Positions 1,204 through 17,395 of a DNA stretch of 20,071 nt are shown here, piece after piece; position 1 is the first letter of the stretch; each line of letters begins with the position of its first letter. Source of the stretch: a virus; the IMG/VR virus record IMGVR_UViG_3300030102_003721, positions 1 to 20,071 of that record; one strand, 5' to 3'. The position numbers and the translations under genes were made by a program. The notes under the pieces were generated by a model. The model saw only the letters and a program-made list of their open reading frames with translations. It was not told the origin of the DNA and ran no database searches.

Positions 1204-3486
1204 TTATTTTCCGTATTGTTTTGCCCCAACCTCCGCAGGAATTTTGAGCATCTCTATCTGCTCTACTGTTGAAAGATATTCTTTTAATACATAGAGTTCA
1301 GCTCTAGTCATATCTCCTATATCACCATCAAAGTTTAATTCTTCTACAGCATCGTCAATTTTTTTATTATTATATTTACTGGACAGTTCATACTGCAAAT
1401 CAATTGTATCAAGTGGACCTGAGTATTGTAAATATAAAAAACTTTTAGCTAACTCTTTAGCTTCAGGTAATATTTCTTTTTTCCAATAAAGCCTTTGTCT
1501 TTCAAGTGGCATATTTCTAAAAGCTTTACTATCCATAAGAGCTGAAGATTTAGCTTCAATAATATCGAATAGTATGCCATTATATTCGTTAGCAGCTTCT
1601 GGTGCTTGCATTCTAATTTTTCTTGCAGCGTTTAAACTAAAAGTGTCGTAACCTAACATATTCATTACACGTTGGGTATCAGTAAGTCTGATTGGTCTTA
1701 CACCTAATGTTTTTGTAGACGTAATGTCAGCTTCACCTATGGCTGCCTGTTTAAGTGTTTCTCCTCTTATTGACTCTCCGAGAAACAAAGGTAAAATATT
1801 ATCTACATAACGAGTAGAGTCATTATAAAACTTATTCCCCTGATAACGATCAATAGGTCTAGCTTGTTGACCGCTTGCAATACCTGCAAGTGTATTTACA
1901 GGTTCTATAAAACGTGTTCCTGAAGATATAACTTGAGAACCTATACCACCAAAAGATTTACCAAAGGCTCTCCAAGATTCTTTCATATCTCCTTGAAACA
2001 TATAAAAGAAAATTCCAGTAACATCTTGTTGAGTTTTATCTAGGTTTCTAAGAAGTCCTTGTAAAGTAAAATCTCGTGCAACTTGTTGAAGTAGTTCAGC
2101 AGGTGGCTCTTCTCCATCCATCCAATATGAAGCCACCCTTGCTGCAGCTTTAAATGCTGAAACAGGATAGTCATACTGCCTAGTAACAACTTCACCGCCA
2201 ACAGATGATTGATACAAACCAAGTCCAGCTTTTCTATCTTCTCTTTCCTGCTGTACCATAAGTGAAGCAAGGCTCCAAGATACAGCAAATTTGGTAAAGA
2301 GTTCTCCGTATTCTTTATCTGAATACTTACCTGCAGCTTTACCTGCAATAGCAAGTCCAGATGCTTGTAATCCAAAATCTACTGTATTATTAAAAAATCT
2401 ACCAAAAGGTATGAGCAGACCAATTCCAGGAATATTTCTTGCATCTTCAATCACAGCCGCAACTTCACCAACAAGTCCTGAGCCTTTATAGGATTTAGAA
2501 AAAATATTTTCTAGGGTTCTACTAACAGCTTTTGTTTCTATTTCTGTATAAGCTTTAGTAGACATAAACTTGGCAGCATCTTCCCAGTTGTAAAACTCTG
2601 ACCAACCTTTACCAGTTACAAGTCTTAACTGTTTATCCATTTGAAAGATAAACTCCTGAGACTTAGTAAAGTTATCTTGAGCTTTAACAAATGATAATGT
2701 TTGAATAAGGTCTACAGCATCTTCTGCTTTTTGCCCAACAAGTTTTTGATTAGGTGTAAACTTACCATCCGTAACAAGTTTAGTTACATTATCAATACCA
2801 CCTGGAAGAGTGCTTGCAAGTGTTTGTAATGCTTTTGAGTTTCTAGTTAAAGCTGACTCAAATGCTGCATGAGTCATGTCAGGATCTAGTAATAACCTCA
2901 TACGAAAATAATTAGAGTCAAGTATACTTCTTGCAATTTTGTATGATTTTTCCCCTGCTTGTTCCATACCAATGGCTTTAGCTAATGTTCCTCTACCTGC
3001 ATGAAGAGTCATTAGAGCCATATCAGATACTGTATTAATACCTGCATTAGCACCCCAACCAATCATGTTAAGAGCACTGGTTGATGGGTTAGATACAAGT
3101 AACCTAATCAATCTATTTTGATTATTACGAATAAAGTCTGGAAGTTTTTCTGATAAACCTTCTGCTTTAGTTTTATCACCTTTTAAAAATCCTAGATCTA
3201 AAGCTGTGTCTATCATCTCAGCTATTTGTACATCTTTAATTGATGTACCATTTAACTTTGAACCTTGAGATGCTGCATTAAGAACTCTGGCAGAGGCATT
3301 CATTTTAAGTGCAAAAGTATTAGCAAAGTCTTCTATCGTAAGAGTTTTAGCTTCTTTAAGTTTATTACCAGTAGACTTTTCAAAAGCTTTGATAAAAGTC
3401 TTTATATCTTTTGGATCTGATTGTTTAATTACTATAAAGGTCGCCTTCTCCTCTTGAAATATATACAAGCCCACGTTCTTGTGCAA
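1204..3486 (-). CDS. Large internal virion / DNA-ejection protein (downstream part; start uncertain)
   Basis: The 760-residue frame looks mostly helical, with segments such as LVSNPSTSALNMIGWGANAG near residue 133, a Gly-rich hydrophobic stretch NIPGIGLLIPFGRFF near 352, and many amphipathic helices. No catalytic motif was recognised. Its size, position at the end of the late operon and style match the long internal virion proteins that marine podoviruses pack and eject, analogous to T7 gp15/gp16. The start is doubtful. The longest frame begins with TTG at 3486 with only a distant AAGG (11 nt), and the first in-frame ATG is much later, within MNASARVLNA. The first 62 nt overlap the upstream gene in another frame, and similarity of style suggests that the two once formed, or still form, one polypeptide (see findings). 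The function is inferred from context. Confidence 0.7.
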   Translation of the reverse strand: MHKNVGLYIFQEEKATFIVIKQSDPKDIKTFIKAFEKSTGNKLKEAKTLTIEDFANTFALKMNASARVLNAASQGSKLNGTSIKDVQIAEMIDTALDLGFLKGDKTKAEGLSEKLPDFIRNNQNRLIRLLVSNPSTSALNMIGWGANAGINTVSDMALMTLHAGRGTLAKAIGMEQAGEKSYKIARSILDSNYFRMRLLLDPDMTHAAFESALTRNSKALQTLASTLPGGIDNVTKLVTDGKFTPNQKLVGQKAEDAVDLIQTLSFVKAQDNFTKSQEFIFQMDKQLRLVTGKGWSEFYNWEDAAKFMSTKAYTEIETKAVSRTLENIFSKSYKGSGLVGEVAAVIEDARNIPGIGLLIPFGRFFNNTVDFGLQASGLAIAGKAAGKYSDKEYGELFTKFAVSWSLASLMVQQEREDRKAGLGLYQSSVGGEVVTRQYDYPVSAFKAAARVASYWMDGEEPPAELLQQVARDFTLQGLLRNLDKTQQDVTGIFFYMFQGDMKESWRAFGKSFGGIGSQVISSGTRFIEPVNTLAGIASGQQARPIDRYQGNKFYNDSTRYVDNILPLFLGESIRGETLKQAAIGEADITSTKTLGVRPIRLTDTQRVMNMLGYDTFSLNAARKIRMQAPEAANEYNGILFDIIEAKSSALMDSKAFRNMPLERQRLYWKKEILPEAKELAKSFLYLQYSGPLDTIDLQYELSSKYNNKKIDDAVEELNFDGDIGDMTRAELYVLKEYLSTVEQIEMLKIPAEVGAKQYGK

Positions 3487-4633
3487 TCTGAGCTAGACCT
3501 TTAAGAACAACATTACCCTCATCGTCTACATGACCAAGAAGTAAATCTACAAAAAAGTCTGTGTCAAGATCTTTAAGTTCTACACCACCTTTTACCTTTT
3601 TAGTCCAAGTACCACTTTTAGGTACTACTGAGTTTACATAATCTCGTATAGACTCAGACAAAGTTTTCATTACATCTTTAGCTTCTGGCTGAGTTACAGA
3701 TACAGATGGTGCAGCTACCTTAGACTCACCTCTAAGCATAACCTTACCTGCTTGAATACCACCTATTCCAACTGCACCTACAGCAGCAATACCCATAGCA
3801 AACTTATCGTAATCGTCACGAACACCTAACTCTATCAAACCATTTTGATATAGATATTCCATACCAACGTTTACTACAGCATCAATACTAGCAGTTGTAG
3901 CAATCTCAGCAAGTGCTCCTTTTTGTGCTAGACGCTTAAGACCACGAGATGATAGTAGTTGGGCTGAGTAGTTTTTAACTTGGTTAGTAGTAGCTTTACC
4001 TGCTTCATCTATTGCCTTAACAAAAACTTTTTTACCAGTTTGTGAAACAGCTTTAGCACTAGCACCTGTAGCTTGTTTCTCAGCCATCTTTTGCAGTGCT
4101 TTTTTCTTAGCAACGTTAGTACCTACTCTTATAGCACCACCACCAACAAATTTACCTACAAGTCCACCTACTATGTTTAATGGATCAAGAATACCTTGAC
4201 GTATAAAATCTACTGTACCACGAACTTTTTCACCAAGTGTGGTTTCTCTAGTGTATAAACCTGCCATGTTTTCATACAAAGCTGCAGCAGCATGTGCACG
4301 AGCCATCTTGTCTTCGTCATCTTCTATATCATTTAGGTAATCCATTTCAGACAAACCACGTACAGTATTACCACCTGCTACACCACGTCTATTATCTAAA
4401 TAATCATCTACAATTTTTGCACGACTTTGACCCTCTATAGACTGTAATCCATAGCGGTCAATCATATAATTTTCTACAATAGAAAATGCTGAATCACTTT
4501 CTACCATATCATTTTCTGAATAAGTTCCTGGCTCAGGAAGATCAAGTGTGGGTGCAGTATGAAACTGAGAAAAAAAGTTTTCTTCTTGGGGTACTTCCTT
4601 CTCTTCGTGAAACTGCTCAAAAAAGTTAGCCAT
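3425..4633 (-). CDS. Probable internal virion protein (upstream part of split or frameshifted gene)
   Basis: A 402-residue protein starting at ATG 4633 with AGGA 6 nt upstream and an 8-nt gap from the preceding gene. The N-terminus holds a duplicated short motif, NFFEQFH (3-9) and NFFSQFH (19-25), followed by an acidic, Pro-rich stretch. Residues 150-172 (DPLNIVGGLVGKFVGGGAIR) and 278-296 (FAMGIAAVGAVGIGGIQAG) are Gly/Ala-rich and hydrophobic and could insert into a membrane. Between them lies a Lys/Ala-rich helical region. No enzyme motif was seen. Membrane-active Gly-rich segments fit an ejected protein that helps form a channel. The end overlaps the 760-residue frame by 62 nt, which is unusual in an operon that otherwise has near-zero gaps. 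Confidence 0.7.
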   Translation of the reverse strand: MANFFEQFHEEKEVPQEENFFSQFHTAPTLDLPEPGTYSENDMVESDSAFSIVENYMIDRYGLQSIEGQSRAKIVDDYLDNRRGVAGGNTVRGLSEMDYLNDIEDDEDKMARAHAAAALYENMAGLYTRETTLGEKVRGTVDFIRQGILDPLNIVGGLVGKFVGGGAIRVGTNVAKKKALQKMAEKQATGASAKAVSQTGKKVFVKAIDEAGKATTNQVKNYSAQLLSSRGLKRLAQKGALAEIATTASIDAVVNVGMEYLYQNGLIELGVRDDYDKFAMGIAAVGAVGIGGIQAGKVMLRGESKVAAPSVSVTQPEAKDVMKTLSESIRDYVNSVVPKSGTWTKKVKGGVELKDLDTDFFVDLLLGHVDDEGNVVLKGLAQIAQERGLVYISRGEGDLYSN

Positions 4634-5597: not shown

Positions 5598-6125
5598 TTA
5601 TACCCTCGCCATTAGTCCAGTTTTAACTGGCTCTTCTTCTACCATCTCAGGTTTTTCTGGCTCCATCTCTGGTTCCATTTCCATTTCAGGTTCTGGCATA
5701 GGTGCCATACCTCGTTCTTCTTTTATCTTAGCTAACATTTTCTTAGCACGGGCTACATCTCTTTGATAGGTAATAACCTCTTTAGCTTCTTTATTTTCAA
5801 AGCCTTCATCAAACTCTAAATCAACAGCCTCTGCAAACCCTTTGATGTACTCGTGAATTATAGGTGCAATAATTAAGCTTACATCTATTGAGTGGATACC
5901 TGCAACAACACCACTACGTAAAATACCTTGAACCATAGTCTGTAAGTCCACTCCCATTTCTAGAAAGTATAGTACATCTTCCATAGCACCATCTTTATTT
6001 AAATTATCTATGTGTGCATCTATTGCCTCCATAGGATCAACTATTTCTGGCGGTCTTTCATATGGAGCATTCTTCGGAGTGTCAGTTAGAGACTGACCTG
6101 GAATTGGTGCATCAAAAGTTCTCAT
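5598..6125 (-). CDS. Conserved marine-phage structural protein with acidic PEM-rich tail, function unknown
   Basis: A 175-residue protein. The N-terminal signature RTFDAPIPGQSLTDTPKNAP followed by YERPPE is of a type I associate with conserved unknown proteins of marine phages, including cyanophages. The middle (40-110) is helical: MEDVLYFLEMGVDLQTMVQG and then HSIDVSLIIAPIIHEYI. Residues 143-168 are a Pro/Glu/Met low-complexity tail (PEPEMEMEPEMEPEKPEMVE) ending in TGLMARV. The start shares one base with the upstream stop (TAATG, 6123-6127), so it is translationally coupled to the lysozyme gene. Coupling and position suggest a virion or assembly role. The acidic tail could act as an interaction or packaging tag; this is inference. 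Confidence 0.65.
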   Translation of the reverse strand: MRTFDAPIPGQSLTDTPKNAPYERPPEIVDPMEAIDAHIDNLNKDGAMEDVLYFLEMGVDLQTMVQGILRSGVVAGIHSIDVSLIIAPIIHEYIKGFAEAVDLEFDEGFENKEAKEVITYQRDVARAKKMLAKIKEERGMAPMPEPEMEMEPEMEPEKPEMVEEEPVKTGLMARV

Positions 6126-6901
6126 TATTTAAGGCTCCTGTCTTCATTGTATCTTTGTAAAATATCTTTTGCAGCAGAAATTCTCTTGCTTAACTGAGGT
6201 TTTCCAGGTCTTAAATAATGGTTAGAAGTAGCTTTTGCAGCATCTACTACTGTATCAGTATTTAAAATTTTATTTAAAGCACTTTTTTCTGTTGTATCAA
6301 ACTCTTTTGTAATCATTGCAAAGTTAGCTTCATAATTATCTGCAGATAAATTTCCAAGATCTGTTAATAGTTGTTCAAAGGTATCCCTTCTATCCCCTGT
6401 CCATTGTGCAAAAGCTAAACCACCCTTAGACCCTTTAACGGTAGGTTTAAGTTCTTGCATAAATTCAAAACCACCTGTTTCATGCCAAAGATTTCCAACA
6501 ACTCCTGCAGCCTGTTCATCAGTCATACCGAATTCTGATTTTAAATCGTCCATTAATTTAAAAGAAGTTTCGTAAGCTTTGTCTACAGTAACACCAGAAC
6601 TTTTAGAAAATATAGGTGTTTCCCCTAAATCTTTATTTTTAACATCTTTTTCAAAACTAATATTTTTAACTTTCTCTTTTAAGGCTTTATTATCTTCAGA
6701 GACTTTTTCATACCTTTTAAGAATTTTTTCTTGAAGAGAAACAGGCTCTTCAATTTTTTCCCCTAGTCTTTCTACTAAAGGACTTGCTTTAGTTCTTCTC
6801 TCGTCTGAAGCACTTTTGATAGCTTTAGATGCCTCTAGACCCCCTGATTGCAAAGCAGCAATTAGAGACATTGTACTAGGTCCATAATTCCACGCACTCA
6901 T
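6125..6901 (-). CDS. Virion-associated lysozyme (phage tail lysozyme domain)
   Basis: A 258-residue protein. Residues 1-105 are charged and helical (likely a virion anchor), and about 108-252 form a lysozyme-like domain. Key pattern: MTDEQAAGVVGNLWHETGGF (126-145) followed by GGLAFAQWTGDRRDTFEQLL (160-179). The E-x-GGF after GNL, with G-x-AQW downstream, is characteristic of the phage tail lysozyme (lysozyme-like fold) family; E141 is the predicted catalytic acid that cleaves the MurNAc-GlcNAc bond. No signal peptide is present. With ejection-type proteins on both sides, it probably acts from the virion, opening peptidoglycan for genome entry, rather than as the endolysin. Start ATG 6901 has AAGGAA 7 nt upstream and a 2-nt gap to the previous gene. 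Confidence 0.85.
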   Translation of the reverse strand: MSAWNYGPSTMSLIAALQSGGLEASKAIKSASDERRTKASPLVERLGEKIEEPVSLQEKILKRYEKVSEDNKALKEKVKNISFEKDVKNKDLGETPIFSKSSGVTVDKAYETSFKLMDDLKSEFGMTDEQAAGVVGNLWHETGGFEFMQELKPTVKGSKGGLAFAQWTGDRRDTFEQLLTDLGNLSADNYEANFAMITKEFDTTEKSALNKILNTDTVVDAAKATSNHYLRPGKPQLSKRISAAKDILQRYNEDRSLK

Positions 6902-6903
6902 AA

Positions 6904-9900
6904 TTAAATTCCTTTTTTATTATTAAATATTCCACCAAAAAGACCGTTTGGATCTGATCCAAAAAAGAATCTAAATGCTAAATCTGTAGCTGCAATATCT
7001 TTTCTTTCTGAAAGTTCTTTTTCTACCTGTTCTATTTTTTTATCACCTAATAAAAGATTTAAAGATCTGTCAAGTGCCGCTTGTTGAGCACTAAATGCAA
7101 ACGACATGATATCTCGTTCACGTTGCCAAATCTGATCAAGGTTAGTAGAGGTAAGAGCATTTATAGTTTTAGCAAAGTCCATATTACTTTCATTTTGCGC
7201 AGCAGTGTTAAGTGTGGCTATATTTTGTCTCCACTGTGCATTAGCTTGAGCAATAACTAATCCATTTTGTGCGTTAAACAAATCACGCTGTTGTTGTAAA
7301 TTAGAATTAAACTCACGTAAAGCATTAATACTGTTTACATTAAATTGATCCATAGCGTTTTGTTGTGATGCATTAAACTGTGATACTTGAGAAGTTAACC
7401 CTGCAAAAAACTGATCAGTCTGGTTCTCGCTTGACGCATTAAATTGCGCAGCAGCATTTTCAGCAGCTTGATCAGTAAACAAAGCTTGAATTTGTTGTTG
7501 TGCTTTAAACATAGCAGCTTGCTGTTCAAATCCTAAGTTTGTCATATCCATCTGCAAAAAGTTTTGAGCATTTTGTACTGCAGCTTGTTGACGATTGTTT
7601 AGGTTAGACAAATCCATGTTTGCTAACGCAGATGCTTCAGCAATAACCATTGCTTGTCTATTAGATAGATTAGCTAATTCCATTGTATTAACTGCACGAG
7701 AGTTTTCAAGTGCTATGTTTTGTTCTGCAGTAAAGTTCATGTTGGCAATATCACCAATACGTGCAGAATTTTTTACACGAGCTTCAAATGCCTGATCAAA
7801 CTCTTGACCTATAAATGCGGCACGTTGTTGTGCTGCAAGTATAGCACGTTGTTGACGGTTAGACAAGTTTTGAGATTCAAACTGTGCCTGTATACCTGCA
7901 TCTGCTTGAGCAATGGGTAGTGCAGCTTCCATAGCAGCTTGTATGATAGCCTGTCCTGCCATACTAGATGCACCTAGACCACGAGCAGACATCGTAGCCA
8001 TTGCTGCTCTCATTGATCCTGCAGCCCACGGTGGTGTCTTACCACCTTCAAACTGAGCCATAAGACCTTCTAGTTGACCTTGAACAGTGGCCTTAGCAGA
8101 TGGTTCTGCTGTAGCTGCTTCAATCTGTTCAGCAAACTCTGCAGCTTTTTCTGCATTAGCTGCACCAGAGATAAGCTCACCATCTTGGATTTCCCTTTGT
8201 ACAGGGTTGTCCATCATAATGGCTGTACCTTGCTGTGCTTTTAAATCTGATACAGCAGAGGTAGTCTGTTGTTCAGCAGTAACCTGAGCTTGATCTGACA
8301 CAGTACCTGTTACAGGTTGCATACCTGAAGTTACGCCTTGTACTGCACCTCCTATAGTAGTAGGAGTTATTGTACTAGCATCTGTAATGGTAGGCATACC
8401 AGCTTGCTGCACTGTACCTACCGTTGCAGCTTCAGCATAAGGTGATGTTTCACCTGCTTGACCTGCTCCTGTAGAAATAAAGTCTTCTTCAGTAGGCTGA
8501 ATAAGATCTACAGCAGACTGTTGTGGTTGCATAGTCTGATCAATTAAATTTTGTTGCATACCAGAAAAATCTTCTAAAGAAGTAGTAGCCGTACCTACAT
8601 CACCACCTGGAAAAAAACCTTTTATATAACCACCTTTGTTAGCCATTATCGTACCAATGGCATTAAACTTACGTTTCATACCCTCACTAGCATTAGCAAA
8701 AGCATCTAGTGAAGGGTTAGTTTTTGGACCTCTGTAACCATTCATAGTAGCAATACGATACTTAGCTTCTAGCATAGTATCCTGTGACATACCACCTGAA
8801 GCATAGCCATTATGCATCATACCACCTTGTGCAGCACCCCTAGTTTTACTATAGCCTGGTGGTACATAAGTGATAGGCTGTCCGTTATTTTCAGTTACAG
8901 AGATACTCTGCCCAAACTGATTTGAATACTGCACTGTTTGTACTCCTATAGAACTACCCCCCATACCTGGCATAGTTGAGGTTAGTTGTTGTTGAGTAAA
9001 TCCTGCTTGTTGTTGTACAGGTTGATTATAATTAAATGTAGGTACGGCAGATAGTCCTGAAGTTTGCAGGGTTGTACCAAAAGTGCCTGTAATAGGTTGT
9101 TGACCGTAAGTAGTACCGCCCCCTATAATAGTTCCTGTCCCTGTACCTGTTCCTGTCCCTGTACCTGTTCCTGTACCGTTTCCTGGATCAACAGCAGTAG
9201 GTGTACCACCTTCATCTGTAGGAGCACCAATGTAAGTAGTACCAGTATCGTCATCATCTCCATCAGTAGTAGTATCCGTAGTAGTGTCTGTACCAGTATC
9301 TATACCAGTATCTGTATCTGTAGGGGTAGTTACAGCAGGAGTCATAGTTTCTTCTGTTTGCTCTTGAGTACGTTTAAATGCACTGTATTCTTCAGCATTT
9401 CCAAACTGTTGTGCCTCTACAAATATAGCACCTTGTCTTCCTGTAGTAGGTGTAAGACCTATCATTGCACTTAATGCATCTAAGTTACCAAGCTGCTGAC
9501 CCCATGTTGCACTTGTACCATCAGCAAATGTATACTGTAGTCCATCTTGACCAAAAGTAATATTATTGTTAGGAGTACCATAAGCTTGGTTTAGTGTTTG
9601 TAGGTAAGACTCTGGGGTGTAGCTAGGACGATAGTCTTGTGTATCTGTAATAACACCATATAGTAAAGCACCTGTTATTGCGTTATCAATGCCTTTATAA
9701 GTAGACTGTAAAAACTGATCTTCCTGCCCTTCATAAAAACTAAAACCTTTATATTGTCCAGTTTTTTCTTGAGTAATAGTTCTTTCAGGTCCACCATCTG
9801 TAGAAATAGTGCCACCACCAGAAATCATAGACTGTTCTTGTAATCTTTTTAAAAAGTCACTACCTGATAGGTTATTATTTAAAGTCTCGTGTAAGATATG

Positions 9901-12093: not shown

Positions 12094-14022
12094 TTATGCG
12101 ATTGCGTAGAAGATGTATATATTGCCGCTAGCATTTAAAAAGTTATTACTGGACAATGCAAATCCTCCTGAATACGGTTCAATTATGTCATCATCTGTTG
12201 TTTCAGCATCATTTGTATTTAATGAAAAGTAAGGGTCATTACCTGCAACAATCCCTCTTTCACTGTCCATTACAACCCAATTTCCTACTGCGCTTCTTTT
12301 TTTAATTAGAACAAACCTAGCGCCACTGCTAAATCCACAATCAATTTGGTGATCAGCGGAGCCATTCCCAGTATAGCTTCCCACCTTGGATATACCTGCT
12401 ACGGTAGCGAAAAGGAAGGCTATGTAGCTGCTAGCAGATGAATTTACTCTAGAACTATTTCCCACAGAAAATTGAGTATTGGTTGGAGCAGTATCATCCC
12501 ATAAAAAATCAGCAGCAAACTCTGCGGCATTCGTGAAGTAAAGGCCATATTGTTCAGGGTTTACTCCTCCATTTAGTCCAGAATGATAAACTGCAAACTC
12601 ACCTGTACCTGTCCTGTTCTTCACCCAAATCATTTCTGGTACTACACCAAGGTTATGATTTATGGTTCTACCTGCAGTACTATTTCCGCCATAAGTAACT
12701 ACATCAAAATAGCTAGGTGCACGTTTCCACATATAATGTATATTATCAGTTGAAGTGTCTGATCTATCAATAAAACCTGTCATGTAGTCAAAAGCGGCCT
12801 CACTAGAACTTCCTTCTGCGCTAGTTAAGTTAGCAAACAAACGTTTACCTTGAATTAATCTTGCATTAACATATTTGTTATCACTTGATGCTTTATTAGT
12901 ATGCAACCCCATGTCAACAGGAAAGCCAGAGACTGCATTAGGAGGGCCACCACTACGATCATCTATAGCAAACACATCAGTTGCACTTGTAGGCGTTGCG
13001 AGTGGGCCTCTGCGTATTGCCGTATAAACAAAGTTTTTATTATTAAAACCACTTACATGCTCAAACCCAGTTGGGGTTATATGTATTCCATCCTCGTCAT
13101 ATTCGGCAAAGTTTTGATTAGAAGAAACTGCTTTATTATAAAACCCAGACGAAGGTTGATCCCCCATAAAACCACGTATATTATCAATAATTTTAAAATC
13201 GGTTGTATCATCGTAAGGTCTATAAATAATCCATTGAGGTTCAAACCCTAAATTAATACTGGCTGTTGCAGAGTTGTCAGCAGTATAAGTTCCACACTTA
13301 ATAATGTCTTGATCACTATTAGGGCCAAACTCACCATCATTGTTATTGTGTGCAAATAAGTAGGCAACGTAGGTTCTACTTGATTGATTAACATCATCGT
13401 GACCGTTTAACGTAAACTCCGTTGACGTTGGTGCTGTATCGTTCCAGTACGTATAGTCACCTCTTGAGCCATTATCATTAAGCCTTAAAAAATAATCTTC
13501 TGGTGCTAAAGGGTCCATCCCTCTGTGATAAACAGCCCACAATGTTGAAGCATGACTTGTGCATTTAACTATAATCATACCTGGAACTGATTCAAGATTA
13601 TGAGCAACAGTTCTACCTGCTGTTCCATTTCCAGTATATGTTACCTTATCAAAAAACTTTGGGGCTTTCCTAAATGTCCACCATACCGCTTCATTACCAG
13701 AATAGTTGTTAAAAGTGTCAGTAAAGCCAGTTGACGTGAAACTATAGTTGGCCCCTGTAAGGCCAACAGTGTTAGAATTTGGTATAAGATAACCGCCACT
13801 GCCTACATTTGGATCAAATATATAGTGGTTGGAAGCACCATTTCTGCTTTTAGCCCAAACTATTCCACCTTCACCAGATAAATTAATACCGTTATTTACT
13901 GTAAAAACACCAGTACCAGATTCTATATCTACAAACGTGTTGAACACATCATCTACATCAGTAGCTCCACCACCTGCTGCTGCACCTGCTGCTGATAAAA
14001 ATAATTTCTTTTTAGTACTCAT
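12094..14022 (-). CDS. DUF7483-type fibre/adhesin protein with internal duplication
   Basis: A 642-residue beta-rich protein. It starts TKKKLFLSAAGAAAGGGATD, a short positively charged/Ala-Gly leader common in this family and not a convincing signal peptide. It contains two tandem halves. Half A (about 112-340) has FRKAPKFFDKVTYTGNGTAG, YWNDTAPTSTEF, TYVAYLFA, IKCGTYTADN and FVYTAIRRG. Half B (about 428-642) has WKRAPSYFDVVTYGGNSTAG, LWDDTAPTNTQF, SYIAFLFAT, ISKVGSYTGNG and IYIFYAIA. Such modules are seen in marine phage structural proteins and are often placed with receptor-binding fibres. It follows the main fibre gene by 4 nt and precedes the assembly chaperone, which supports a host-recognition role. 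The AGGA ribosome site lies 7 nt before ATG 14022. The receptor is unknown. Confidence 0.7.
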   Translation of the reverse strand: MSTKKKLFLSAAGAAAGGGATDVDDVFNTFVDIESGTGVFTVNNGINLSGEGGIVWAKSRNGASNHYIFDPNVGSGGYLIPNSNTVGLTGANYSFTSTGFTDTFNNYSGNEAVWWTFRKAPKFFDKVTYTGNGTAGRTVAHNLESVPGMIIVKCTSHASTLWAVYHRGMDPLAPEDYFLRLNDNGSRGDYTYWNDTAPTSTEFTLNGHDDVNQSSRTYVAYLFAHNNNDGEFGPNSDQDIIKCGTYTADNSATASINLGFEPQWIIYRPYDDTTDFKIIDNIRGFMGDQPSSGFYNKAVSSNQNFAEYDEDGIHITPTGFEHVSGFNNKNFVYTAIRRGPLATPTSATDVFAIDDRSGGPPNAVSGFPVDMGLHTNKASSDNKYVNARLIQGKRLFANLTSAEGSSSEAAFDYMTGFIDRSDTSTDNIHYMWKRAPSYFDVVTYGGNSTAGRTINHNLGVVPEMIWVKNRTGTGEFAVYHSGLNGGVNPEQYGLYFTNAAEFAADFLWDDTAPTNTQFSVGNSSRVNSSASSYIAFLFATVAGISKVGSYTGNGSADHQIDCGFSSGARFVLIKKRSAVGNWVVMDSERGIVAGNDPYFSLNTNDAETTDDDIIEPYSGGFALSSNNFLNASGNIYIFYAIA

Positions 14023-14026
14023 TAAT

Positions 14027-17000
14027 TTATCCTAGTGCCTGACCTGCTGTAAATCCGTACCAGTTTGTGCCACCATCTCTTGTATAAAACACAAAGACAT
14101 CTTTAGCTGATGCTGTTGCTGTAAGAGTTGGGGCTGTAGCTGAAGGCCAATCTACAGATGTAGGCCAAGTAACTGTATAACCTGATGCTGAAGAGTCCTG
14201 TATAATCTCTAAACTAAAACTAAATGCTGTGCCAGATGCAGGTGGGTTACTAAAAGTAAACGTAGTGTTTTCTGTTAGTGTATGTGCAAATGCGTTACCT
14301 GTGTGGCAGTCTACTGTAATAGCGTTAGAAGAAGAAGTAATTGTGTTATATACTTCGTTATAACTATCTGCTATTAACTCACCACTTACATCAGTAGTTC
14401 CTGCAGAATTTATTCGAAGTCTTTCAGTACCACCTGTGTCAAATGTTATTGTATCTGTACCAAAGTCAATTGATGTATTGGTATCGCCACTATGTCTAAT
14501 ACCATCAGCTACATTTATATATTCGTTTACAGTAAGATTACCGTATATAGTCGTATCTTGACCTTGACTAATATTTAAGGCAAGAATTTCATTAGTTGAA
14601 CCGCTAGATGTATAAAAAGCCATGCTTGAGCCATCAGCTGCAGAGTTTTGAGCTATAGCTTTAATAGAAGCTTTGACACCTGCCCCTGGAGTTGAAGTAT
14701 CTGAGCCATAAAAATCTATAACACCAAGTTCTTGACCACTTGTTGCTGACGTATCGGTATTTCTTAATTCAAGGGTTGCAGTGCTTGATGATTGCACACG
14801 AGCAAATCCACCATTAACAAATAAATCGTCAGTCGTTGTTACATCACCAGTAACGCTTACACCAGTAGTAGAAGTTTGAAGTTTTATTGAGTTATTATGA
14901 TAAAGATATACAGCACTATCCCCTGAGCAAAAAATCATATTTTCCGATGATGAAGATGTTCCCTTACGAATAGCAAAATTATCATTGGTATAAATATATG
15001 TGTCTACTGTAGTATTAGAACCATTTCCAGCAATGATATTTGCGTTTGCAGTGTTGTCGTGATATATTTGCAGATCATCATCAGCGCCAAACTTTAAACG
15101 GTTTGTTGTAGATGAGCCATCATCAAAAGCTATTTCATTTCCGTTAGTATCTAAATTACCGCCAAGCTGTGGGGACGTATCTTCAACAATATTAAGAAGC
15201 ACAGTACCTGTAGCATCAGGTAAAGTAATTGTCCTATCTGCAGTGGGGTCTGTAACATTTAAAACAGTTTCGAAATCGTTAGCAGTAGAACCTTCTATGG
15301 TAAGACCTGCATCACTTAGGTACAAACCACTAACTGTAGGAGATGTAAGAGTTTTATTTGTTAGTGTTTTTGTTGTAGCTGAAAAATATGTGTCAAGTAA
15401 ATCTACATCAAAGTAACCTATAGAAGAGCCAGATGTGTCAAATACTGCAATACCATCATCTGCTGCAATAGCTGTGCTTGTATCAATCGTAATTGCTGAT
15501 ACATCTGCAACAGCGTTAAGTTCTGCACCTGTAGCTGTAAGTCCTGTAACGTTGTTAGCTTGACCTGCTGTAGTGTCTACATAAGCTTTTACAGATTGTT
15601 GTGTAGGAATAAGTGTAGCACTGTTAGATGTCATATCATCTTCATCTACAAAGGCAGTTACAGTAATTGTACCGTCAGATAGGCTACCGTATGTTACAGT
15701 ACCACTTGCTGTTACTGTAGTACCACTAACATTACCAGTAACATCACCAGTTAAATTACCAGTTACATTTCCTGTCACATTACCAGTAACGTTACCTGTT
15801 ACTCCACCTGTTACGTCACCAGTTAAATTACCAGTAACATTACCTGTTACGTTTCCAGTTAAGTTTCCAGTTACATCACCTGTAACGTCTCCAGTGACAT
15901 CTCCAGTTACATTTCCTGTAAGGTTGCCTGTAACGTTACCTTCAACATTAGCAACCATAGTACCTGTAGTAATTGTAAGATCGCCAGTAGATGCACCAGT
16001 AAATGTACCAGTACCTACAGTAAATTTATCTGCTGATTCATCAAAGCCAATAAATGCATTAGCACTGTCACCACGTTCAATAACAATACCTGCATCGTTT
16101 GAAGGTGTGCCTGTAGTACCGTTACCTAATTCAATAAGTCCATCTGACACAACTGTGTTTGTTGTTGATACAGTTGTAGTTGTACCGTTGACCGTAAGAT
16201 CACCACCTACTGTGACGTTACCTGAAGTTGTAACTGTAGCAAAACTAGATGTACCAGATGAAGTTACGTTACCTGTTAAATCACCAGTAACATCACCTGT
16301 AACGTCTCCAGTGACATTACCAGTAACGTTGCCAGTAACATTTCCTGTTACATTCCCAGTTACGTTACCAGTTAAAGCTCCTGTCACTGCAGTAATATTA
16401 GCTGCATCACCGTATATGTTAGCCCAACGAACAGAGGTAGTACCTAAGTCATGTGTACTATCTGCAGCAGGGTTTAGATTTTTAGCTGTAGAAGTTGTAG
16501 CTACTAAATTTCCTGTAACATCTCCAGTAAGATCACCTGTCACATCTCCTGTTACATTACCAGTGACATTTCCAGTAACATTACCTGTAACATTCCCTGT
16601 TAAGTTACCTGTCACGTTTCCTGTAACATTTCCTGTTACGTCACCTGTAACATCGCCTGTAACATCACCTGTCAAGTTTCCTGTAACGTTACCTGTAACT
16701 GGACCTACAAGTGAAGTACCTGTGATTGTTGTACCTGTAATAGCTGCAGCACTGTTACCACCAATAACTGCACCATCAATTGTACCACCATTAATATCAG
16801 CGGTATCAGCTACAAGATCATCTATTAGTGCTTGTCCATCAACATACAGATTACGCCACTCAGCACCTACAGCACCAAGGTCATGTGTGTCATCAGCAGA
16901 AGGAGTGATAGCAGATGCAACATCAGCAGTAATAGTTACTGTATCTGTAGCTGCATTACCAAGAGTAGTGTTTCCGTTTACTGTTAAGTTTGCAGTAATA

Positions 17001-17395
17001 GTAGCACTTTCATCTACAGTAAGAGTGTCTATTGTAGCTGTACCATCAATAAATAAATCTTTAAATTCTAAACTAGATGTACCAAGGTCAATGTCATTGT
17101 CGGTTACAGGAACAATAGCACCATCTTGTATTCTTACTTGCTCTACAGCAGCAGAAGATACCTCACTAAAAAATCCAATACGGTTATTTGTCGTGTCTAT
17201 AACAACTTTATTATAATTATCTGTATCAGAAATTTCTGGTATATATGCACCTTCTGCAGTTGTACCATCATGTTTATGACCAGATGTTTTATTAAAAGCA
17301 TCTCGTATTGCATTAAATTCATTGTTTACTGGACCAGATTTTACAATCTCACCTGGTTGTATGTTACTGCTTGATTGTCTTGTATAACCTGCCAT
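14027..17395 (-). CDS. Tail fibre with NVTG tetrapeptide-repeat shaft
   Basis: A 1122-residue protein. The N-terminal ~60 residues (GYTRQSSSNIQPGEIVKSGP, then FNAIRDAFNKTSGHKHDG) resemble tail-fibre/virion-attachment heads. Then come three copies of a DLG-x5-W/F-x-NLY-x-DG module (near 103, 171 and 315) and three arrays of [ND][VL]TG repeats (232-295, 340-379, 487-558; 44 units in all), which should form a thin beta-structured shaft. Next is a beta module with DRTITLPDATGTV and NRLKFGADDDLQIYHDN. The C-terminus ends in a beta-sandwich-like segment (NAITVDCHTGNAFAHTLTEN through YTRDGGTNWYGFTAGQALG) and lacks an obvious S74 self-cleaving chaperone, in line with a separate assembly protein downstream. 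Role: receptor binding. It follows the previous gene by 1 nt. Confidence 0.85.
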   Translation of the reverse strand: MAGYTRQSSSNIQPGEIVKSGPVNNEFNAIRDAFNKTSGHKHDGTTAEGAYIPEISDTDNYNKVVIDTTNNRIGFFSEVSSAAVEQVRIQDGAIVPVTDNDIDLGTSSLEFKDLFIDGTATIDTLTVDESATITANLTVNGNTTLGNAATDTVTITADVASAITPSADDTHDLGAVGAEWRNLYVDGQALIDDLVADTADINGGTIDGAVIGGNSAAAITGTTITGTSLVGPVTGNVTGNLTGDVTGDVTGDVTGNVTGNVTGNLTGNVTGNVTGNVTGNVTGDVTGDLTGDVTGNLVATTSTAKNLNPAADSTHDLGTTSVRWANIYGDAANITAVTGALTGNVTGNVTGNVTGNVTGNVTGDVTGDVTGDLTGNVTSSGTSSFATVTTSGNVTVGGDLTVNGTTTTVSTTNTVVSDGLIELGNGTTGTPSNDAGIVIERGDSANAFIGFDESADKFTVGTGTFTGASTGDLTITTGTMVANVEGNVTGNLTGNVTGDVTGDVTGDVTGNLTGNVTGNVTGNLTGDVTGGVTGNVTGNVTGNVTGNLTGDVTGNVSGTTVTASGTVTYGSLSDGTITVTAFVDEDDMTSNSATLIPTQQSVKAYVDTTAGQANNVTGLTATGAELNAVADVSAITIDTSTAIAADDGIAVFDTSGSSIGYFDVDLLDTYFSATTKTLTNKTLTSPTVSGLYLSDAGLTIEGSTANDFETVLNVTDPTADRTITLPDATGTVLLNIVEDTSPQLGGNLDTNGNEIAFDDGSSTTNRLKFGADDDLQIYHDNTANANIIAGNGSNTTVDTYIYTNDNFAIRKGTSSSSENMIFCSGDSAVYLYHNNSIKLQTSTTGVSVTGDVTTTDDLFVNGGFARVQSSSTATLELRNTDTSATSGQELGVIDFYGSDTSTPGAGVKASIKAIAQNSAADGSSMAFYTSSGSTNEILALNISQGQDTTIYGNLTVNEYINVADGIRHSGDTNTSIDFGTDTITFDTGGTERLRINSAGTTDVSGELIADSYNEVYNTITSSSNAITVDCHTGNAFAHTLTENTTFTFSNPPASGTAFSFSLEIIQDSSASGYTVTWPTSVDWPSATAPTLTATASAKDVFVFYTRDGGTNWYGFTAGQALG
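15722..15937 (-). repeat. NVTG array 3 (18 units of 12 bp)
   Basis: Eighteen contiguous tetrapeptide units (NVTG, NLTG, DVTG, one GVTG, ending NVSG), residues 487-558 of the fibre. The 12-bp units differ mostly at synonymous positions. This is the longest of the three arrays. Confidence 0.9.
16259..16378 (-). repeat. NVTG array 2 (10 units of 12 bp)
   Basis: Ten tetrapeptide units from ALTG to NVTS, residues 340-379 of the fibre, directly after the third DLG-type module. Confidence 0.9.
16511..16702 (-). repeat. NVTG array 1 (16 units of 12 bp)
   Basis: Sixteen tetrapeptide units from PVTG to DVTG, residues 232-295 of the fibre, between the second and third DLG-type modules. Units vary between Asn and Asp at position 1 and Val and Leu at position 2. 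Confidence 0.9.

Follow-up and report, generated by a model that had tools for sequence, protein, structure and literature searches.

Introduction

Programmed +1 frameshift sites of the prfB type carry a Shine-Dalgarno (SD)-like sequence upstream of CTT-T, and their slip codon is followed immediately by a stop. Direct repeats bounding a lost stretch of DNA are typical of repeat-mediated deletion (or of a misjoin). T7 gp16 has an N-terminal muramidase (transglycosylase) domain. Reported escape mutants of T4-family phages provide an example of such loss, in that every mutant carried a large deletion flanked by direct repeats (PMC5449768). Assembly error is also a documented source of spurious pseudogenes in bacterial genomes (Cooley and Wright 2024; PMC11017572). 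Among deposited phages with a gene homologous to the one considered here, the Roseobacter phages CRP-207 and CRP-603 have been classed as HMO-2011-type (PMC9038755), and CRP-9, a short-tailed phage, is reported to have morphogenesis genes most similar to the HMO-2011-type group (PMC8528129).

Here we analyze a stretch of viral DNA of 20,071 nt (the window), part of a 20,597-base virus record, in which two long frames of what appears to be a large virion gene overlap out of frame. A sequence-only reading had left three origins for this arrangement (a programmed frameshift, a recent split or an error) and had labeled the product an ejection protein.

Results

Two long minus-strand frames overlap in the window

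The upstream frame (3425-4633, minus strand) starts with ATG and encodes 402 amino acids, and the downstream frame (1204-3486, minus strand) starts with TTG and encodes 760. They share positions 3425-3486 and are +1 relative to each other; these coordinates confirm the overlap of 62 nt that had been reported. The 62 nt describe an open frame, not a gene, for TTG 3486 is merely the first start-like codon past a stop. It sits within sequence that relatives translate in the other frame, and inspection by eye revealed no clear ribosome-binding site for it, bearing out the earlier remark that the downstream frame has no convincing start. The earliest ATG of that frame, again by eye, lies at 3301-3303. 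The bases proposed to act as a slip site are likewise present where they had been placed: AGGAG at 3448-3452, AAGG at 3444-3447, CTT at 3437-3439 followed by T, and TAA at 3425-3427. By contrast, the statement that the other minus-strand genes abut or overlap by one base needs amending, as two pairs overlap by one base and the rest are 1 to 55 nt apart. The features referred to below are:

3425..4633, minus strand: upstream fragment, 402 amino acids; N-terminal third of a virion gene that is normally undivided, cut off early by the frame change
1204..3426, minus strand: downstream fragment, 740 amino acids past the junction; the C-terminal two thirds of that virion gene, without a plausible start of its own
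3427..3433, minus strand: deletion junction; 17 nt of the junction-spanning relatives are missing, and the remaining GTAA(TT) copy lies at 3427-3432
3436..3452, minus strand: SD-like AGGAG and CTTT, the proposed slip site; ordinary coding sequence common to intact relatives

Relatives carry both halves in one frame

A scan of viral contigs with the downstream part identified 33 relatives at 45-98% identity. Five of these (L005, L011, L024, L030 and L031) end short of the junction, and in all 28 junction-spanning loci of this first search the open frame continues past the junction into the upstream half. Later scans used a neighboring gene (best 80 of 212) and the upstream half as queries. Both halves occur in 82 of 149 loci (E 1e-5 or better; window's own record excluded), which exact containment reduces to 49 distinct sequences. 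The sequence-only reading had asked whether the halves are fused in relatives, and they are: every one of the 49 distinct sequences holds both halves in one frame, 48 of them with no stop between the matched ends, and the three Roseobacter phages agree. Where the gene is whole and unbroken in contigs, it spans 1142-1215 amino acids stop to stop.

The closest comparison is provided by three IMG/VR contigs (L001, L002 and L003), to which both window fragments are 95-98% identical where aligned. Unlike the window, these contigs carry the 17 nt and read through in a single frame of 1150-1152 amino acids stop to stop. Among the closer of the fused relatives, the N-terminal parts are 70-96% identical to the 402-residue fragment. 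The homologous large gene of CRP-9 (gp36; QSL99451.1), CRP-207 (gp39) and CRP-603 (gp44) is the last in its block before opposite-strand genes; it differs from the window's in being uninterrupted, a single CDS of 1141, 1148 and 1152 amino acids, respectively, and is only 24-30% identical. Bacterial and archaeal genomes yielded two distant relatives in contigs of metagenome-assembled genomes (MAGs), each with one long frame (1168 and 1362 amino acids stop to stop). The contigs in question (L150 and L151) are binned as a Blastopirellula MAG and a Flavobacteriaceae MAG, and are probably phage contigs swept into bacterial bins.

We considered one further locus, L095, as a second case of the split and rejected it. 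Its two halves lie in one frame, and the interruption is caused by a single-base nonsense change relative to its twin L094. The stop (7386-7388) falls about 25 codons upstream of the junction-equivalent site; in this region L094 is identical at 350 of 351 bases and lacks the nonsense codon. A different locus, L029, has a private 1-nt deletion near 2588 beside a near-identical intact contig. These two private frame-breaking lesions next to intact near-twins hint at how frequent such lesions are in this collection.

A 17-nt stretch is missing at a short direct repeat

Alignment of the junction, and of the full gene with L001, L002, L003, L004 and L006, revealed that 17 nt are missing exactly at the junction in the window alone. 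In the full-gene alignment this is the sole gap not divisible by three; all others measure 3, 9 or 21 nt, except where L004 is cut off by the end of its contig. In relatives, the missing stretch is flanked by GTAA (GTAATT in L003) on one side and by a second GTAATT on the other, so that the window lost one copy of the direct repeat plus the intervening bases. In L001, L003 and L006, 1.1-1.5% of the positions in the gene have at least 4 nt of microhomology 17 nt away, and 0-0.4% have at least 6 nt. The protein segment affected is ungapped in all 28 aligned relatives, down to 23% identity.

Near-identical junctions were also sought by pattern among viral contigs. The full-length junction was present in eight, all within the set of 33 relatives, and the shortened junction in none, in a scan from which the window's own record may have been absent; nor did the fetched loci include a second contig of the window's strain. 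The locus thus has what marks a frameshift of the pseudogene or assembly-error kind: intact relatives, a lesion private as far as searched, and a length not divisible by three.

These observations suggest a simple course of events. A single large virion-protein gene (about 1150 amino acids in the nearest relatives) would have lost 17 nt between short direct repeats, GTAA or, if the ancestor had the codon of L003, GTAATT. Because 17 is not a multiple of three, the remainder of the gene would be read in the +1 frame, with the first part ending within about two codons of the join, giving the appearance of two overlapping genes. We are therefore highly confident that the overlap represents one large virion gene minus 17 nt at a direct repeat in this contig, for which no frameshift signal is needed.

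Weighing the alternative explanations

A programmed +1 frameshift at CTT-T, aided by the upstream AGGAG, would yield one protein of about 1142 amino acids. The window does contain an SD-like sequence a few bases upstream of CTT-T, an arrangement that resembles the prfB site, and the sequence of both parts is conserved. Yet the same elements are found in intact genes: of the five intact near relatives compared, L001, L002, L004 and L006 (but not L003) have AGGAG followed by CTTT within 4-12 nt at the same site, and these bases are therefore ordinary coding sequence. An SD-like sequence with CTTT also recurs within the window at minus-strand positions 2657 and 6506, inside open frames. Unlike at prfB, the codon after CTT is TAT, not a stop, and the two-frame layout is not conserved, since the relatives are fused and none of those fetched has two frames here. 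By hand count, moreover, the shifted product would be six residues shorter and carry a rewritten segment, which corresponds to a predicted helix (residues 402-411 of the L001 model) in the gapless stretch described above. The data do not support a programmed site, and we regard it as extremely unlikely. A related scenario, in which the deletion is real and the phage survives by chance +1 slippage at CTT-T through the pre-existing SD-like sequence, with a slightly shortened full-length virion protein, appears exceedingly improbable as well. A living lineage in which a recent split of the gene produced two functional proteins, the second starting from TTG 3486, from a non-canonical ATT at the stop or from ATG 3301-3303, would fit the length of the fragments and the low dN/dS of both. 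The scan for the shortened junction, however, found the split in no other contig, the second frame has by eye neither a convincing start nor a ribosome-binding site, and the conserved block at the join is destroyed in both split products; we consider this reading very unlikely.

For the preferred explanation, a private deletion, there remains the choice between natural slippage in the sequenced phage genome and an artefact of library preparation or assembly in the form of a misjoin at this repeat; we judge the two to be about equally likely. Against an artefact, a 17-nt deletion is an unusual type of short-read error. The cases described in PMC11017572 resemble the window in that one assembly has an interrupted frame that is whole in close relatives, and differ in concerning bacterial genomes, whereas any error here would be a 17-nt loss at a repeat. 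Relative to L001, L002, L003 and L006, dN/dS is 0.10-0.31 in the upstream part and 0.08-0.19 in the downstream part. Both halves thus look constrained and have undergone no visible decay after the lesion, which, judged from these substitution patterns, would be recent or artefactual. We saw no sign of a two-strain chimera joined at the junction in sliding identity against five relatives, because L001 stays closest, or almost closest, over several hundred bases on either side; farther upstream, near 4400, the nearest relative switches to L002 and L003. To look for decay of the phage as a whole, the open frames of L062, L069, L054, L051 and L046 were aligned to the window, and they revealed no further broken gene in the regions compared, which comprise all but about 18.3-20.07 kb, 11.33-11.55 kb, most of 9.2-11.0 kb and parts of the tail gene within 14.0-17.4 kb. 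Two right-hand-end genes, of 517 and 243 amino acids, are matched by PHROG profiles over most of their length. Of the earlier wording "recent split or error", what stands is that the 17 nt are absent from this contig only, as far as searched.

Gene neighborhood and candidate function

The virion gene ends a block of virion genes, behind matches to a tail lysozyme (PF18013), tail fibre and SU10 adaptor. Because CRP-207 and CRP-603 are HMO-2011-type and the morphogenesis genes of CRP-9 are most similar to that group, the window probably comes from a phage with an HMO-2011-like virion module.

Three further observations concern the surroundings. L062 (2213-8776), the nearest relative, has two copies of the tail-fibre genes homologous to window 12097-14341, of which the window has one. 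A 440-residue open frame on the plus strand (15894-17216) runs antisense to the 1122-residue tail gene and is probably a by-product of composition. Between convergent plus- and minus-strand genes, at 1173-1204, a GC-rich hairpin with flanking A and T runs was noticed by eye, and looks like a two-way terminator.

Profile searches contribute little to the function of the gene. Pfam returned no families for either fragment. PHROGs gave no match for the 740-residue fragment and one marginal match for the 402-residue fragment, to a virion structural protein (E 0.007); among the 28 aligned relatives one had a marginal match (E 0.0094), with no function given. By sequence, the best match in the PDB reached E 0.14. 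We therefore turned to the fold of the L001 protein, predicted from 25 sequences, which is mostly helical (pLDDT 68.6, pTM 0.63). The best predicted-structure match of this model is an unnamed viral protein of 1141 amino acids. It also matches the predicted internal virion proteins of Pelagibacter phage EXVC018P (E 7.5e-9) and Synechococcus phage S-CBP2 (E 6.4e-6), both with low TM-scores of 0.24-0.34, as well as several "large polyvalent protein associated domain" proteins (E below 1e-4, again with low TM-scores). No clear match emerged among solved structures (best Foldseek E 0.22; best VIA-align Z 5.4 over 63 residues), and internal virion proteins are absent among the solved-structure matches listed, which excludes nothing.

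A muramidase domain like that of T7 gp16 had no Pfam match in either fragment, although a diverged domain may escape a profile; the phage tail lysozyme domain PF18013 resides in a separate gene of 258 amino acids (6125-6901). The "ejection protein" label thus draws indirect support from the weak structural similarity of the model to predicted internal virion proteins of other phages, whereas homology to T7 gp16 was not seen in our searches. A reasonable guess from the predicted model is that the gene encodes an internal virion (ejection-type) protein in HMO-2011-like podophages.

Discussion

The feature is an ordinary private 17-nt deletion in one contig, by mutation or artefact. The lesion most likely reflects a chance mutation or an assembly error, not a new mechanism, so that a misleading candidate for a novel programmed frameshift in a virion gene can be set aside. 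More generally, a programmed frameshift can be mimicked by one private deletion in a metagenome contig. Our comparison further outlines a family of large virion genes in HMO-2011-like marine phages that is nearly without profile annotation. If the deletion is natural, the phage would be defective or recently mutated; if it is real and the phage is alive, it would constitute a natural test of how much alteration this virion protein tolerates.
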